This document shows, piece by piece, positions 1 to 16,494 of a DNA stretch of 51,173 nt (within the stretch, counting starts at the first letter, position 1; the number at the start of each line of letters is the position of its first letter). This DNA comes from Candidatus Altimarinota bacterium (GTDB lineage: Bacteria > Patescibacteriota > Gracilibacteria > BD1-5 > UBA2023), in NCBI GenBank assembly GCA_028689065.1, contig JAQTWX010000006.1:1-51173 (forward strand), given 5' to 3'. The notes beneath the pieces were generated by a model. That model did no database searches and was not told where the DNA came from. It was given only the letters and a program-made list of their open reading frames with translations. The position numbers and the translations under genes were made by a program.

Positions 1-548
1 TCGTAATAAGATCCATCTTCTAAAAATATGTGAGCCAATACCCTTCAATATTTATCATTCTTATCTTGTGTATCATCAAATTCAATTCTAACCTTTTTTC
101 AAGTTAAAAGTTTTTTAGCATAATCACTCGCCTCTTCTCCATAACATTCTTTATATCAGGTTCTAGTAGCGAATTTTTCCGGTGTATCTATTCATAGAAT
201 TCGGATAGTCTCTGTTTTTCAATTTATATCAATCTTTATTGTATCCCCATCGACAACACTTATAACATCATAAAGAATTCAAGTTCAAGATTCTTGCTTG
301 TAGCTAATTTTATCAATGACAGCATCTAATATATAAGAAATCCTTTCATTTGTAGAATATTTGGATTTCAGTTTCTCTAATTGGATGATAACCTTGCTTT
401 TATATAATTCGGATTTTCAATCAACCAATTTAACAACCTTAGATCACGCAGTCTCTATAATCTTAACATCATTTTCGTTTGGAGTATAAGCAAGTGCTGT
501 TGTAAAAATAAATATGGATAGAAAAAGAAGTTTCAATAAGGTTTTCAT
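1..548 (-). CDS. Secreted thermonuclease (SNase-like), C-terminus outside window
   Basis: Extracellular endonuclease of the staphylococcal nuclease family, expected to cut DNA or RNA using calcium. Residues 1-20 form a signal peptide (KK, hydrophobic core, ALA). Residues 21-90 are a charged spacer and the nuclease domain starts near 92. All catalytic-core positions are visible: VDGDT (Asp102), Arg116, the GIDTPE motif (Asp121, Glu124) and KYGR (Arg169). The glycines of GIDTPE and KYGR are TGA codons, so the standard code would break the gene inside its active site. The reading frame runs off the window edge after 182 residues. It lies next to the recombinase gene, on the element side of the comM junction, so it is probably element cargo; a role in scavenging nucleotides from host DNA is inference. 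Confidence 0.88.
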
Positions 549-650: not shown

Positions 651-2525
651 TTAAAAACCTTGTCATAACTTTAAAAGGGTAAGGAGCTCCGCTTTATCTT
701 TTTCCAAGCTCTTCTCAATAGCCTTACTATAATTTCGCGGGTGATAAAAGAATGGATTTTTATGATAGTATTTTAATACAATTTTTTTTGATATATTTTT
801 TGAAAAATTTATATTGATTTCAAGAAATTTTGTTCATAGTTTTTTTATTCCCCCTTCTTTACCGAAGACACTAAAATATATATTTTGAATTAAAGGATCT
901 GTTTTTGATGAATAAAATCAGTCAGCTTTAAGTTCTTTAATTATAGGGTTATATACTTCTGATATGTCCAACCTTTCACTTATATGAATTTCTTTAATGT
1001 AAGTCAATAATTTAACTCTTTGATTTTCAATATCCAGAAGATCAGTTAAAATTTTTCCTTCATTTTCTACAACATAACTAAGTCATTCTTTTAAATTATC
1101 TAGGAATGATAATTCTTTCTGTTTTTCTTTTGCCTCTTTTTTTTCTTCTGATATTAGTGTAAGTCTCTCTATTAAATTCGTTTTTTCCTTATAAAGTTTA
1201 CTTTTACTCTCCATACGACTTTCCATATCAGCCCTTACTTCTCATTTATCTTCCTCGGAAGAATTTAGGATTTCTTCGAGTTCATCAATTTTCCGTATAT
1301 GTCTTTCTCTTTCCTTGTTATTATTTTCTATTTGTTTCAAAATTTTACTCTCCTCATTTTCTAGTATTGTTAAAACATTTTTTTCTTTTAACCCGCTTAA
1401 AATTTTTTCCTTCTCTGTATCAAAGAAATCCGTTTCATTTAGGATAAATAGTAAGCAATATATAATTATATCTTCAAGATAATCCGCATCTATACAGGTG
1501 ATTTGTGTATTCTTTTTTTCAATCAATATTCCTTCCTCTTCCGAGGAATAAATATTTCTTTCAGGGTCTCTATATTGCCTTTTTCCATTTTCAATATTAG
1601 TCTGAAAACGAAGACCTTTTTGATTAAATAAAATACCCTTCAATAAAAACATATTCTTATGTCCCTTTTTTCGATTATAGACAGTCTTATTGAGTATGAG
1701 TTGCTTTTGAACTTTATCAAAAACCTCCTTGTCTACGATTACAGGAACTGGCACAATTATATATCTTCAATCCTCCATTCACTTGTATTTCTTTCCCCAT
1801 TCCCATTCTCAAATATAAGTTCTAGAATGAAGAATTTTTTGTAATGTGCTTTTCCCCCATATCTCTCGTCAATTTATAGTTAAAATATTTTTTTTCTTCA
1901 AATAACTCCTAACATTTGTTAATGTTCTTCCTTCTGCTACTAATTCAAATATTTTTTTTACAACAGTAGCTTCCGTTTCATTTATTGAAAGACTTTGTCT
2001 TTTTATTTCTTTTCCACTTTCTCTTTCTGTAAAGTTAATAGTATATCAGTATATATTTCTTGATAATTGTGTTGCTTTTTTGTTTAAAACATTCCTTTTT
2101 CCTCTTCAAAACCTATCAAGAATAGTTGCTTTTTCAAATTCAGCAATTGTCGAAAGCATATTAAAATGAAGATCGTCCTCCTTACTTCCGCTCCTAAATT
2201 TCCCTTTACCTTTCGTATAAATAGTTATTCCTTTCTGTTTTAATAATCTATATGTGAAATATTGTTCTCCGTTATTCCTTCACATTCTTGAAAGCTCATC
2301 AAAAATAATTGAATTAATATCAGTATTCTTTTCAAGAAACTCCATCATCATAGAAAAACCCAATCTTTCAAGATTGGCAGAGCTTCCAGTTACTTTGTCC
2401 TCGAATATTTGTATTAGATCAAATCCCTCCTTTTCCGCATAAAATCTTATTTCACTTTTTTGACTTTCAAAATCTTGTTTGTTTGTTGATACACGAACAT
2501 ATCACACTACTTTTAGTTTATCCAT
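651..2525 (-). CDS. Large serine recombinase (site-specific integrase)
   Basis: A 624-residue integrase/resolvase of the large serine recombinase family, which cuts and rejoins attP and attB through a 5'-phosphoserine. The N-terminal catalytic domain shows YVRVST (nucleophile Ser13, Arg11), DELSRMGRN (76-84) and AEFEKATILDRFGRGK. A recombinase domain and a Glu/Lys-rich coiled-coil region follow. The first half contains many TGA glycine codons, including those in GYVRVS, RMGRN and RFGRGK, and the second half several more. The Cys4 zinc ribbon typical of the family is not evident. The start is the first ATG after an inverted repeat and has no Shine-Dalgarno sequence. The gene lies 65 bases from truncated comM, the usual place for an integrase beside its own attachment site. 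Confidence 0.9.
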
Positions 2526-2528
2526 AGT

Positions 2529-2563
2529 CTATATAATGAAAGTAATTTAACTTCATTATATAG
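2529..2563. promoter_or_regulatory. 12-bp inverted repeat in front of the recombinase gene
   Basis: CTATATAATGAA (2529-2540) and its exact reverse complement (2552-2563) are separated by 11 bases and end only 3 bases before the recombinase ATG. The arm contains TATAAT on one strand and ATTATA on the other, so it may be a promoter covered by an operator (autorepression) or part of the recombinase arm of the attachment site. A message starting here would be almost leaderless. Confidence 0.55.
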
Positions 2564-2607
2564 AAAATATCAATTTCCCAAAATAATTTTTATGAACATA
2601 ACATTAG
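2530..2607. other. Probable attachment junction between element and comM
   Basis: Reading comM on the minus strand, family conservation holds through GGHNIL (last matching codon 2605-2607) and then fails: four unrelated residues and a TAA follow at 2590. The recombinase gene begins within 85 bases. The crossover point should lie at about 2598-2607. The exact core dinucleotide cannot be fixed without the other junction or an uninterrupted relative. Confidence 0.6.
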
Positions 2608-3267
2608 GATATTATGTCCTCATGCTGCAGCAATAGTAAGTGCTCGCTTGGCGTGCTCTTGCCCGATGATGTGCTCGAATCCAGTGATTTTCGTGCTGGA
2701 TTTATATTTCTCGATAAATACTTTCGGATCTACTGGTGTATGTTCTGGAAGAGATTTAGTCCCCGTAAGTATTTCTACAAGCGATGCGAGATTTTCGATT
2801 CCTATGAGGTGTACTCATGGTATGAGTGATGCTTCTTCGAGGTTTTCCCATGGAAGGAATATATACTTAATTCCTTGTTCTTTGGCGAATATGACTGATG
2901 GGAGGATAGCACTAACACTCCGAAGTTTCCCATCAAGGGCGAGTTCTCCGACAAAGAGTCCATTTTTTATGTAATCTTCGATAAATTCATACTCTTTACA
3001 GAGGATTCCAATGGCAATCGGAAGGTCGAAACTTGGTCCCTTTTTTCTCACATCTGCAGGAGCAAGATTAACGGTGATACGGGTTGATGGGAAAGTAAAA
3101 CCAGAGTTTTTGAGAGCACTTCGTACTCGCTCTTTGCTTTCTTGAATTGCTGCATCGGGAAGTCCGACGATATTGAATGCAGGCATTCCATTGCTTACAT
3201 CAAGTTCAACATCTATCTTATTTCCGGAGAGTCCATTGACTGAAACAGAAAAAACTTTTGAGAACAT
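2590..3267 (-). pseudogene. comM: ComM/YifB AAA+ ATPase, truncated by element insertion
   Basis: The N-terminal 225 residues of the Mg-chelatase-like ComM/YifB protein, a hexameric helicase that promotes branch migration during natural transformation. The start MFSKVFSVSVNGL and the Lon-like fold (GLPDAAIQESKERVRSAL, the NLAPADVRKKG region, GELALDGKLR) are typical. The linker ends in GQEHAKRALTIAAAGGHNIL, where relatives continue directly into the GPPGSGKT Walker A loop. Here it ends in MLCS-stop, so all ATPase motifs are missing and the product cannot be a motor. Two TGA glycines lie in the retained part (PGVHLIG and AAAGGHN). A full-length family member is about 500 residues; the lost 3' half should lie at the far end of the element, outside the window. 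Confidence 0.9.
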
Positions 3268-6433: not shown

Positions 6434-7342
6434 ATGCAGTATTCTGAAACGAGAAAACTTCTCGGTACCTCCATAGAAATAACCGTTGTTTCTGAAGATC
6501 CAAAAACTCCAGAACGCATCGGATATGTATTTGATTATTTTTATTCTATCGAACAAGAATTTTCACGATTTTTGCCAGATTCAAGCCTGAGCCTCCTTAA
6601 TAAATACAAAAAAATGAGTGTCTCAAAACGTTTTTTGGAACTCATGGAAATTTCTAAAAAAATGTACAGAGAAACTAATGGTTTTTTTAATCCCCTCGTA
6701 TCTGTAGCAAAACTCGGGTATCAAAACTCTTTTGAACAGGGAAAATTTGAACCAGTAGAATGAACAGTTGATACAAATTTTGATAAGATTCAGATCGAAG
6801 GAGATGTTATAACTCTCGAACCTGGACAGTCTCTTGATTTCGGAGGTATCGGAAAGTGATGGGCAGTTGATAAAGGATCTTCTCTTCTTCGTCTTTTTGG
6901 ATATGAAAATTTCTTTATTAATGCCTGAGGAGATATTTATGCGAGTGGAAATAGAGAAGTTGGAAAAATCGGATGGGTTATTGGTGTAGAAAATCCCTTT
7001 ACTGAGGATGTTATTGCCTCACTTGTTCTCAAAAATTCTGCAATTGCTACCTCTGGAAGTTATAAAAGAAAATGGGATATAAATGAGAAAAAATATCATC
7101 ATCTCATTAACCCAATAACTTCTGGAAATGAAAATGCTATTGTGAGTGTTACTCTTATAGCTTCTGAATGTGCGAAAACAGATGGATTTACCAAGAGTAT
7201 CTTTAATGCTCCAGTTTCAGATGGACTTCGTCTTATTGAACAGAACGACATGGAAGGTCTTATATTTACATCATCTGGACAGCTTCTTTACAGCAAGGGA
7301 CTTCAGGAAAAATACGAGCTTGATTTCGGAGAAACAAACTAA
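6434..7342 (+). CDS. apbE: ApbE-family FAD:protein FMN transferase
   Basis: Transfers FMN from FAD onto a Thr/Ser of target proteins (covalent flavinylation). The 302 residues contain the N-terminal LLGTSIEITV strand, the acidic SRFLPDSSLSLLN segment, DFGGIGKGWAVD (flavin-binding loop, glycine from TGA), FINAGGDIYASG (glycine from TGA), a GSYKRKW segment and the HHLINP motif. No signal peptide or lipobox precedes the domain, unlike many periplasmic ApbE proteins; the start at 6434 follows an AT-rich leader and no longer in-frame start is seen. The likely substrate is encoded directly downstream at 7419, and both genes share an upstream box. How a protein without an evident export signal would reach a secreted substrate is open. 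Confidence 0.93.
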
Positions 7343-7352
7343 TTATTCATAA

Positions 7353-7371
7353 TTAAGTTTCATTTAAGGTT
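7353..7371 (+). promoter_or_regulatory. Predicted response-regulator box upstream of the FMN-binding protein gene
   Basis: TTAAGTTTCATTTAAGGTT repeats TTAAGNTT with an 11-bp period, matching the box at 6374. It ends 10 bp before a TTGACA -35 element, the placement expected of a class I activator site. Confidence 0.68.
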
Positions 7372-7381
7372 ACTTTTTATA

Positions 7382-7410
7382 TTGACAGTATATAAATATT
7401 TATTTATCTA
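7382..7410 (+). promoter_or_regulatory. Sigma70-type promoter for the FMN-binding protein gene
   Basis: TTGACA (7382-7387), 17-bp spacer, TATCTA (7405-7410). A start about 7 bp downstream lies within a few bases of the ATG at 7419, so the transcript would be nearly leaderless. Confidence 0.65.
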
Positions 7411-7418
7411 ATTTTTTT

Positions 7419-9455
7419 ATGAAAAAAACGCTACAAATCATCACAATAGGAAGTATATTTCTTTTTTGTGGAGCTTCCTTTTTTGGTATTGTATCAGTAA
7501 ATAATGAAAATATTCCTTCAGGATTTTGGAATATTCGTCAGATTATGATTACGCCTACCTATGCAGATGATGACGAGGATGATAATCATCACAGTCGGTC
7601 ACATGAAAGTTCTCATGACGATGAGAAACATTGAGGTGATGATAGAGATAGTCATGATGACGATTACTATCAGCCGACCCCGACACCTGTGACTCCAAAT
7701 CCAACGCCTACTCCTGTTAATCCAACGCCAAGTCCAACAACTTGTACTTATCAGGATGCAAATTATACGGGTACTGCGTCATATTCAGAGTCACGAGTTG
7801 GTGGTATGGCCAACCCTGTTACTGCAGATGTCACAGTAAGTGGCGGAAAGATTTCTGCTATCAATGTAACTACGCAATTTACACATAGCAATCTTACGAG
7901 AGTAAGCAATACTATTGTTGCAAACGTTATCGCTACACAAAAAGTAAGTACTGTTTCTGGAGCATCAGGAACTGCTATAGCAAATGCGATTCAATCAGCA
8001 ATAAGTTCAGCAGGGACTTGTACTACTAACCCTACTCCAACACCTACGCCAACTCCAGTTCCGACAACACCAGCAGCTCCTATGGTAACAGTTAATGATA
8101 CAACAAATACTGTCACAGGAATGGCATCCGGAATGGAATATAATCTTGATAATACTGGATATGTACTTTATAATCCAAACATTTTTAAATCTCTTAATTT
8201 TGCTGGAAATCACACACTTCTCGTACGTATAGCTGCAACAGGAAATACTCCTGCAGGATCCGTAACAAAACTTATCTTCACAACAAACCCAGCACTCAAT
8301 CCTACGCCAGCTCCAACACCTGTTCCAAATCCAGGAACGAATTGTTCTTTGGCAGATGGAATTTATACAGGAAATGGATCATATTCAGAGTCACGACTTG
8401 GTGGTATGGCCAACCCCGTTACTGTAACTACAAAGATTGTAGGTGGAAAAATATCAACCATCTCTGTTTCCACACAATTCACCCATGCAAATCTTACGAA
8501 TGTTGAAGATACTATTGTTGCAAACGTTATTGCTACACAAAAAGTAAGTACTGTTTCTGGAGCATCAGGAACTGCTATAGCAAATGCTATACAGGATTCT
8601 ATTTCTCAGGCAAGTTCTTGTTCTACAAGTACGCCAGCGCCAGTACCAACACCAAATCCTAATCCTACTCCAACACCTACGCCAAAACCAGTAGCTCCAG
8701 CTAGTAATGTTTTCACAGGAGAATGAACTTATTCTTACCCAGGAGGATCATTGACTTCTATAGTGGAACTCACTGTTACTAATGGTAAAATCACAGCAGC
8801 ACAATGGAAACAATTTTTTCCATCAGGAAATGGAAATTATACTCGTGCTATGGCAGATGCAAATCTTCAAAAATTGATTAATAGTTCTATAACTACTGTT
8901 GATACAATAAGTGGAGCAACTTGAACATCTAATGCTGTTCAAGATGCAATCAACAATGCTCTTGCAAAAGCAAGAAATGCTTCCATAGGAACATCATCAA
9001 CACCTATTACTCTAACCCCAACACCAAGTCAGAATAGTACACTTTCAGTAAATAATACTCCAACTAAGTATACTGCTCCAAATGGAAAAACATATAAAAT
9101 TATACACAATACTACTTCGAATGTTTATATGTTCAAACGTGCAGATGGAACTATATCATCTCGAGAATTTCCTACAAAAGATGCCATGATAGCATATATT
9201 CGTGATAATAATCCTATTGCTGTGGCACCTGTGATAGCGCAAATTAAAAGAACTCCAACTCCAATAAAAAGAACTACATCAGTAGTAGCACCAAGAACAT
9301 CTACTGCTTCTTCATCTGCAGCTACTGCTGCTGCAAAAGCCGCAGCTCAAGCACAAGCCGCCGCAGCTGCAAAAGCTGCAGCCGCAGCCGCTGCTGCAAA
9401 AGCCGCAGCCGCTACACCAGCCCCAAAAGTAAATACTACTACGACAGTCAGTTAA
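7419..9455 (+). CDS. Secreted protein with three FMN-binding domains
   Basis: 678 residues. Signal peptide at residues 1-48 (ends near TYA), then an Asp/His-rich stretch (about 49-85) that could bind metal. Pro/Thr linkers separate three FMN-binding domains: domain 1 about 108-202 with SGAS at 180-183, domain 2 about 308-402 with SGAS at 380-383, domain 3 about 430-520 with the canonical SGAT at 498-501. The codon after Thr501 is a TGA glycine. Between domains 1 and 2 lies a DUF4073-like beta domain (about 218-291, NTVTGMASGMEYNLD). Residues 547-600 form a small domain (APNGKTYKII), and the C-terminus is a long Ala/Lys helix. Covalent FMN at Ser183, Ser383 and Thr501 would make a surface electron carrier. 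ApbE is encoded upstream and the membrane reductase downstream. Serine at two sites is less usual, so the number of flavins is uncertain. Confidence 0.9.
7759..8618 (+). repeat. Duplicated FMN-domain DNA, 600-bp period
   Basis: Bases 7759-8018 and 8359-8618 align at a constant offset of 600 with no indel. Long runs are identical or nearly so, for example around 7780-7824 (2 differences) and 7909-7987 (2 differences). Synonymous positions are conserved too, which points to recent duplication or gene conversion rather than selection on protein alone. Confidence 0.85.
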
Positions 9456-13584: not shown

Positions 13585-16494
13585 ATGAATCTTGATTTTT
13601 CTCTCATTCCAACAGTATTTGCAAAAATTGCAATAGGGTCTGTTTCTACGCAAAATCCAGAACCAGTAGCAGCTAGTTCAGGTGCTTCGGGAGGGTTTGG
13701 TATGTTTTTTTCATATATAGGAGATTTTCTTCTCTTTGTTATCGTATTTTTTCTTTTTCTGAAACTTATCCGATTGATATATGAAGTATACGCAGCACGA
13801 AATCTCGTATATATGAGAATAACACTTCCTCGTGCCGATTCTAAGCTTGATAAGGAAAAGGAGACCAAAAAAGATTTCAAAGAAAAGACGGGTATTATGT
13901 CCATCTTTTATAAAGGAATTCATAAAATATCACAGGCAACCTTGAAAGATACTATTCTTGATATGATATTCAATCATGCAAAAATCTCTTTGGAGATCCT
14001 TTATGATAAGGGTCAAGTATCTTTTTACGCGGTAACATACAAGGAATATGTTCCACTTATCTCTCAGCAGATTACCTCCAATTATCCAGATGCAGAAGTA
14101 AAAATAATCTCAAAAGAAGAATATGGTGATATAAAACCAGCAGGATATACACTCAGGACCGCTTCGGTATATAAGGAAAATGATGATATTTATCCGTTTA
14201 AAACCTATAAATATTTCGAAGACGATCCATTATCGAGTATTACTAATAATATTGGTAATCTCAAGAAGACAGATCGTGCAGTTTTTCAAGTAGTTATAAA
14301 GCCACTTGGCTCTTCTTGGAATAAAAGAGCAAAGAAAGCTGCTGGTGAAGTAGCAAAAGGAATGTATAAAAAAGGTTTTAAATGAGGAATGGTTGTTACT
14401 ATTATTCAATCCATTTTTTCACCAATTTATTGGGTTATGCAACGTCTCGTTGTCAATGAACCATCTGGAGGAGAATCAGGAGCACCAGGAGCTTCATCAT
14501 GAGATTCCTATAAGATATTCAATCAAGCAGAACAAGAAGCACAGAAAATGGTCGGAGAATCTGCAGGACAGCCAGGATTCGAGGCATCTATTCGTGTATT
14601 AGTTGCATCAGATACTCCACAAAGTGCAGAATCAGGACTGTATAATCTTCTTTCATCGATGAATATTTTCACCGATGAATATAATAATAAACTCGATAAT
14701 CCACAGGTTATAGAAGATATGTTTCGATTCTTCTTTACACCCATCCGATATATCGCTTTTAAACTCCGACTTGTTGGTTTTCTTCAGGTAAAAAGTATTC
14801 TCTCAACTGATGAACTTTCGACATTGTATCATTTTCCCGATATTAATTACAATAAATCTCCCATTATTAAATGGCTTGATTATAAAATGCTCGCTCCGCC
14901 AAACAATCTCAAAACTCCTACAAAACCGACGATGCTCATGGATTATAAGCGAGACAAAAAAGGAAATGTTTTGACGAACGACGGAAGTTATCTTAAAGTA
15001 GATGGAAACTGGAATCTTATTCGTGATGAGGCACGTAATTTTATGACAACAACTGGCGAAGTTGTCGCAGTTTTTGCAGATGGAGATAATAAAGGAAAAC
15101 CAGTGGACGAAGGAAAAACTCCTATTCAGGAACTTCAACAACGTCATATCGCAGGGTTTCCAGTTTATACAGACGGAGTTCTTATGGGATGGAATGAATA
15201 TCGTAACAATAAACAACCAGTATATTTTACACGAAAAGATCGAGGACGACACCATTATATTATCGGTAAATCGGGATGAGGTAAATCGGTATTTGTTGGA
15301 TATTTGGCACGTCAGGATCTCTGGAATGGAGACGGACTTTGTGTTATTGATCCTCATGGAGATCTGGTGGAAGATATTATTGCGTTTACTCCGAAGGAAC
15401 GAGCAAAAGATGTTATCATATTTAATCCAGCTGACCATGAACGTCCAATGGGGCTTAATATGCTTGAGATTATTGCAACAGATCCAGCACTTCGAGCGAT
15501 TGAGAAAGATCGTGCTGCTCTTGATGCCACTTCAATTTTTATTAAGATATTTAATGAAGAAATCTTTGGACCGCGAATCCAACACTATTTCCGAAATGGA
15601 TGTCTAACTCTTATGGATGATGAAGATGAGGGTGGAACGCTTATCGACGTGCCACGACTCTTTGTTGATGATGCATTTATGAAATACAAAACTTCCAAGG
15701 TTCAGAATCCTGTTGTAAAAGCATTCTGGGATCATGAATATGCCAATACGGGAGATCGTGAAAAACAGGAAATGATTCCATATTTCAGTTCGAAATTTGG
15801 ACCGTTTGTAACAAATACCACTATTCGTAATATTATCGGTCAACCAAAATCCGCTTTCAATCTCCGTCGAGTTATGGATGATCAAAAAGCCCTTATGGTT
15901 AATCTTTCTAAAGGTATGATTGGAGATTTGAATGCACAGCTTCTTGGTCTTATATTCGTTTCAAAGATTAATATGGCGGCCATGAGTCGTGCCGACACTC
16001 CAGAGGATGAACGAAAAGATTTCTTCCTCTATGTTGATGAGTTTCAGAATTTTGCTACCGATACCTTTGGGGAAATCTTGTCAGAAGCTCGTAAGTATCA
16101 TTTAGCACTGATTATGGCGCATCAATTTATTGCCCAGATTGGAGGTTCTAAATCCAAAGATGGAAAACCAACTATTAAGGATGCAGTATTCGGGAATGCA
16201 GGAACTATTATGTCTTTCAAGGTTGGTGCTGAGGATGCCGAGTATCTTGAAAAAGAATATGCTCCACTTCTCTCTCAACAGGATATCATCGGTATTGCCA
16301 ACTTTACAACCTATTGTAAACTCAACATCGACAATGCGACGACCCGTCCGTTCGATATGAAGACTATCTGGGATAATCATTACAAAAATCCAGAAGTTGC
16401 AAAGGTTATCAAGGAGTATTCTCGTAAAATGTACGGACGCAAAAAAGAGTACGTCGACATGGAGATCGAGGCACGACTTGGAATTGTAAAATAG
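13585..16494 (+). CDS. VirD4/TraG-like type IV secretion coupling ATPase
   Basis: 969 residues. A short outer segment, then a TM helix at about 45-70 (FLLFVIVFFLFLKLIRLIY), a long cytoplasmic domain, and an ATPase core from about 555. Walker A is GKSGGGKS, with the second of its three middle glycines encoded by TGA (15277-15279, residue 565). VIDPHGDLVEDI follows; Walker B is FFLYVDEFQNF, and the TraM/TraG-type sensor (LIMAHQF) is present. Two TGA glycines occur near residues 269 and 306. The family hexamerises and feeds DNA or protein to a type IV channel. CPR genomes often keep such ATPases without a relaxase, and none is seen here, so DNA uptake or a pilus-like role is as likely as conjugation. 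Confidence 0.92.

Follow-up and report, generated by a model that had tools for sequence, protein, structure and literature searches.

Of predicted site-specific large serine recombinases (LSRs), 12.4% target genes of the Mg-chelatase (ComM/YifB) family, and competence genes are enriched among LSR targets (Durrant et al. 2022, PMC10083194). In Wolbachia, sr1WO of phage WO splits the magnesium chelatase gene (PMC9203015). Other mobile elements interrupt comM in several Proteobacteria, in a report that also mentions insertions in comK (PMC4774983), and in A. baumannii an AbaR island in comM lowers transformation, which is restored when AbaR is removed and the gene repaired (PMC7508600).

The window analysed here is the entire contig C5 (51,173 bp) of a 1.04-Mb genome assembled in 24 contigs. 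We consider it highly probable that it carries one end of an integrative element which, using its own LSR, has recently inserted site-specifically in comM at the I-L-M codons before the Walker A motif, splitting ComM. As in the elements of PMC10083194, an LSR-bearing element lies in the coding sequence of a gene of the Mg-chelatase/ATP-dependent protease family; unlike them, the host is of Gracilibacteria type with genetic code 25, and no close relative of the LSR turned up in 353 genomes of the class or in the scanned collections. As with phage WO, the serine recombinase lies at the element edge and broken Mg-chelatase halves lie on both flanks, but phage WO is a tailed prophage, whereas no tail, capsid or terminase gene was recognised in the assembled part of this element. 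The disruption of comM by a mobile element is shared with the AbaR islands and other elements of Acinetobacter, Aggregatibacter, Mannheimia, Francisella and Pseudomonas (PMC7508600, PMC4774983), although those use other recombination enzymes, the elements differ by the papers' descriptions, and an effect on transformation is here one that we only infer.

Since comM/Mg-chelatase is already known as a target of LSRs and other mobile elements, the insertion is a familiar kind of event, and it is the unusual host group, not the type of event, that is new; we found no report of a comM insertion in this group in the open literature. The insertion hotspot is thereby extended to bacteria of the Candidate Phyla Radiation (CPR), including a lineage in which TGA encodes glycine. 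The genes of the region are open only with TGA read as glycine (code 25), both the comM and the LSR reading frames being interrupted by TGA under table 11, and the comM frames of relatives from the same order hold 2 to 35 TGA codons. These reading frames, in the host and in its relatives, point to a Gracilibacteria-type lineage, and the organism is predicted to be an epibiont.

The split comM gene and its attachment core

On C5, the truncated comM reading frame (2590-3267, minus strand, code 25; ChlI, 1e-46) ends ...AAAGGHNILM-LCS-stop. Host codons 1-221, which contain the ChlI domain and end ...AAAGGHNIL, occupy 2605..3267 (minus strand) and are 86-90% identical to those of four congeners. 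The frame follows comM to residue M222, breaks at GGHNILM just before Walker A, and closes with an element-derived tail, L-C-S-stop (2590..2601, minus strand), that is absent from all congeners; the TIGR00368 profile is covered at positions 1-217 only. The initial annotation, which was made from the sequence of this stretch, had placed the end of a 5′ piece of 221 or so codons at GGHNIL, before Walker A, with an LSR gene adjoining the break, and its coordinates were accurate.

The 3′ half of comM was found elsewhere in the genome, on contig C8 (C8:13755-14618), with a TIGR00368 match (13722-14609) to profile positions 205-499 that complements the match on C5. It is an intact, stop-free frame of 287 codons, starting MEGPPGSGKT at the ATG of the core described below, with both Walker A and Walker B present. 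Searches of the genome with TIGR00368, Mg_chelatase and Mg_chelatase_C gave no second comM, and only the split gene is assembled.

The C5 junction reads GGACATAATATCCTAATG|TTATGTTC and the C8 junction AACACTTTGTCCTCATG|GAAGGGCC, with the common core TCCT[A/C]ATG. On the comM strand the attL core (2602..2609, minus strand) is TCCTAATG, and its counterpart at the C8 junction is TCCTCATG, so that the wobble base of the L codon is A in attL and C in attR. In all six same-genus genomes the comM site is uninterrupted (..CT[C/T]ATGGAA), with ATGGAA following CTC (n = 4) or CTT (n = 2) and in none of the six CTA. As no congener has CTA, the crossover, which lies somewhere within TCCTNATG, probably took place within TCCT, left of the wobble base. 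Joining the C5 and C8 halves in silico gives a frame of 508 codons, and comM is exactly as long in each of the six congeners. What the contigs and the congeners present is a split gene with complementary halves, a shared core, empty sites and an unshifted frame. The initial annotation had proposed a serine-recombinase element inserted in comM, to be checked by a 3′ half elsewhere in the genome, an attL/attR core and an empty site in close relatives; each of these was found, together with the restored frame.

In the mechanism that we propose, the LSR would recombine an attP of the element with a chromosomal attB in comM to give attL and attR inside the gene, with no comM codon lost or gained. 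Host codons 1-221 would then flank the element on one side, and on the other would lie the 3′ half, whose 287 codons restart at the core ATG. The LSR on C5 is the presumed enzyme of the insertion.

The two halves lie on two contigs, and at least C11 among the contigs of the bin is a likely contaminant, as might be expected if the halves came from different genomes or a contig were chimeric. An artefact of assembly or binning is nevertheless scarcely credible, as both junctions are contig-internal (2.6 kb and 13.75 kb from the ends of C5 and C8, respectively), the complementary halves both share 86-92% identity with the same congeners, the 3′ half on C8 is followed downstream by the same gene as comM in congener G001 (90.6% identity), and the element genes are rich in in-frame TGA, which matches the code-25 host. 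An overlap between the ends of C5 and C8 was sought and none was found, so the contigs are not physically joined, and we infer their linkage across the inserted element. Contig C11 itself (8182 bp, L042), which has the only other full resolvase domain in the genome, was rejected as a piece of the element; it is standard-code-like, reads well without TGA as glycine and is probably a contaminant of the bin. Its genes include a second resolvase and one resembling a tyrosine integrase.

The recombinase and the gene content of the element

The LSR gene (651..2525, minus strand) encodes the element integrase, a protein of 624 aa with 13 TGA-glycine codons, and matches the phrog_95 integrase (5.5e-56), Resolvase PF00239 (3e-25) and Recombinase PF07508 (5e-21). 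The protein thus has the N-terminal resolvase catalytic domain, the PF07508 domain and the long C-terminal region of an LSR. The recombinase zinc ribbon PF13408 gave no Pfam match at 0.01, while the LSR of a second CPR genome (G517, below) scores 2e-4; PF13408 scores are weak in many LSRs. No relative at an E-value of 1e-20 was found outside the host genome among the 353 class genomes, nor was any found in the viral_contigs or genome_contigs scans; the distant matches (about 25%) include the phage WO LSR. The enzyme could serve as a candidate LSR, with its attB and attP, for a lineage in which genetic tools are scarce.

The distance from the LSR frame is 64 bp to the stop of truncated comM and 76 bp to the core ATG. 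The stretch between it and the core (2526..2601, minus strand) comprises the left end of the element, with the phage-side arm of attL and the LSR upstream region. Directly upstream of the LSR start, it contains an 18-nt inverted repeat (2528-2545 / 2547-2564; 89%, 1-nt spacer) with TATAAT-like boxes, a possible operator.

The element spans at least 16.4 kb, 2.6 kb on C5 and 13.75 kb on C8, a length that is a minimum because the contigs end without overlap and the middle is missing. On C5, the contig end cuts a gene for a secreted thermonuclease-like protein (3..548, minus strand; SNase, 1.5e-11). On C8, a GmrSD_N-type gene is likewise cut by the contig end, and the assembled part also encodes a 1083-aa protein, whose C-terminal part is TOPRIM-like by eye and for which a PDB sequence search gave only chance-level matches, a secreted-looking 698-aa protein, a 174-aa zinc-finger/membrane protein, a 509-aa primase-like protein (phrog_2478, 4e-6), a 111-aa protein, a 782-aa HerA-like ATPase with no PDB sequence match, a Replic_Relax-like protein and a 193-aa protein. 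Relaxase, type IV secretion and coupling functions are represented in the assembled part only by below-cut-off matches, to HerA/DUF87-like (0.0084) and Replic_Relax (1e-4). No terminase, portal, capsid or tail gene was recognised among the assembled element genes, unlike in two comM prophages described below (G378 and G527), and a tailed prophage like WO is unsupported by this gene content. The combination of primase-like protein, HerA-like ATPase and Replic_Relax-like protein suggests instead an integrated plasmid or a mobilisable or conjugative-type element with defence-like cargo.

A second element of the same family is present in the host genome, at about 13342-18956 of C19 (L077), with the primase, the 111-aa protein, the ATPase and the Replic_Relax-like protein in the same order. 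Its ATPase is 65-68% identical to that on C8 and its primase nearly identical by eye. Relatives of the element ATPase occur in only four of the 353 class genomes, the host genome included. At the end of C12, an LSR-like C-terminal fragment (7068-8135, L079) stops within a tRNA-Met gene (7068-7143), which suggests another serine-recombinase element, in a tRNA gene.

Age of the insertion and fate of ComM

Neither comM half contains a stop or a frameshift. Compared with the six congeners, each half has pN/pS values (0.065-0.149) that fall within the range among the congeners themselves (0.074-0.149 apart from the two lowest values); with synonymous sites near saturation this is a weak test of decay, and shows only a lack of visible decay. 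Since neither half has decayed, the insertion looks recent, which is the simplest reading of the sequences.

The disruption of ComM, which had been claimed from the 5′ half, follows from the anatomy of the split gene, and the split AAA+ helicase is most likely inactive. ComM acts in branch migration of incoming DNA. As ComEC (on C21) and DprA (on C7) are retained, the cell may still take up DNA but be impaired in branch migration of the incoming DNA, whose recombination would be reduced.

It is unlikely that ComM is held hostage reversibly, with the LSR excising during competence or host contact, or that split ComM is functional through restart of the 3′ AAA+ half at the core ATG. The Listeria comK prophage, a regulatory switch, is likewise a serine-recombinase element that splits a competence gene, and the initial annotation had drawn this parallel. 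A regulated switch, in which precise excision under some condition would restore comM, would fit junctions that give back the exact 508-codon frame, halves free of decay and a genome that keeps ComEC and DprA. However, every LSR insertion should allow precise restoration, and the retention of comEC and dprA says nothing about switching. Unlike for the Listeria prophage, the assembly, which holds split comM only, gives no sign of excision, regulation or restoration. LSR excision as a rule requires a directionality factor, with the help of which excision of this element may be possible, but none was recognised here. We therefore regard a switch of the comK kind as unsupported and very unlikely; as many non-regulatory comM insertions are described in the literature, simple targeting of a hotspot is the default.

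It is more doubtful still that both halves, the 5′ one with ChlI and the 3′ one with AAA+, are translated and come together again as a working protein. The 3′ frame does have an in-frame ATG exactly at the core, 287 aa without stops and complete Walker A and B motifs, and shows no sign of decay; but the core ATG is no more than the Met codon of the host gene, nothing like a ribosome-binding sequence is evident ahead of it, and a recent insertion explains the undecayed state equally well.

Other insertions in comM

To see how comM fares elsewhere, TIGR00368 was searched in 99 close relatives and 380 genomes across the phylum (about 465 distinct), of which 32 were inspected more closely. Among the matches listed, with only low-scoring genomes re-examined, comM is clearly broken by an element in at least four genomes, the host genome and G517, G378 and G527. 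In G517, another CPR genome, a 15.8-kb LSR element (C2:13041-29580, L163) interrupts comM at GGHN-L|M, within 1-2 bp of the site used here. The two LSRs share 26% identity over 253 residues and, relative to comM, occupy opposite element ends, which suggests that they target the gene independently. No relative of the G517 LSR was found in the viral_contigs scan. Past attR, the C-terminus of this LSR continues into comM in a different frame; a C-5 cytosine methylase and an OLD/AriA-like ATPase are also encoded on the element.

The CPR genomes G378 (C1:462179-504240) and G527 (C1:312100-351059) hold related tailed prophages of about 37-41 kb with tyrosine-type integrases (L165-L170), both inserted in comM at GVLFLDE, the Walker B motif. 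Two distantly related LSRs thus act at the same codon pair before Walker A and two tyrosine-integrase prophages at Walker B, so that conserved nucleotide-binding motifs of ComM appear as attachment sites for different classes of enzyme. Both prophages contain an SNase-like gene, as does the element on C5.

Five genomes with partial comM only at contig ends (G380, G365, G686, G681 and G631) were not counted as insertions, nor were G457 and G086, in which the breaks look like frame breaks. In G365 a contig (C131:1) begins at comM profile position 211, the same place as the C5/C8 insertion, which could mean that the assembly broke at a site of variable occupancy. In the phage collection, comM is broken near profile positions 280-305 in Acinetobacter and Evtepia phage records.
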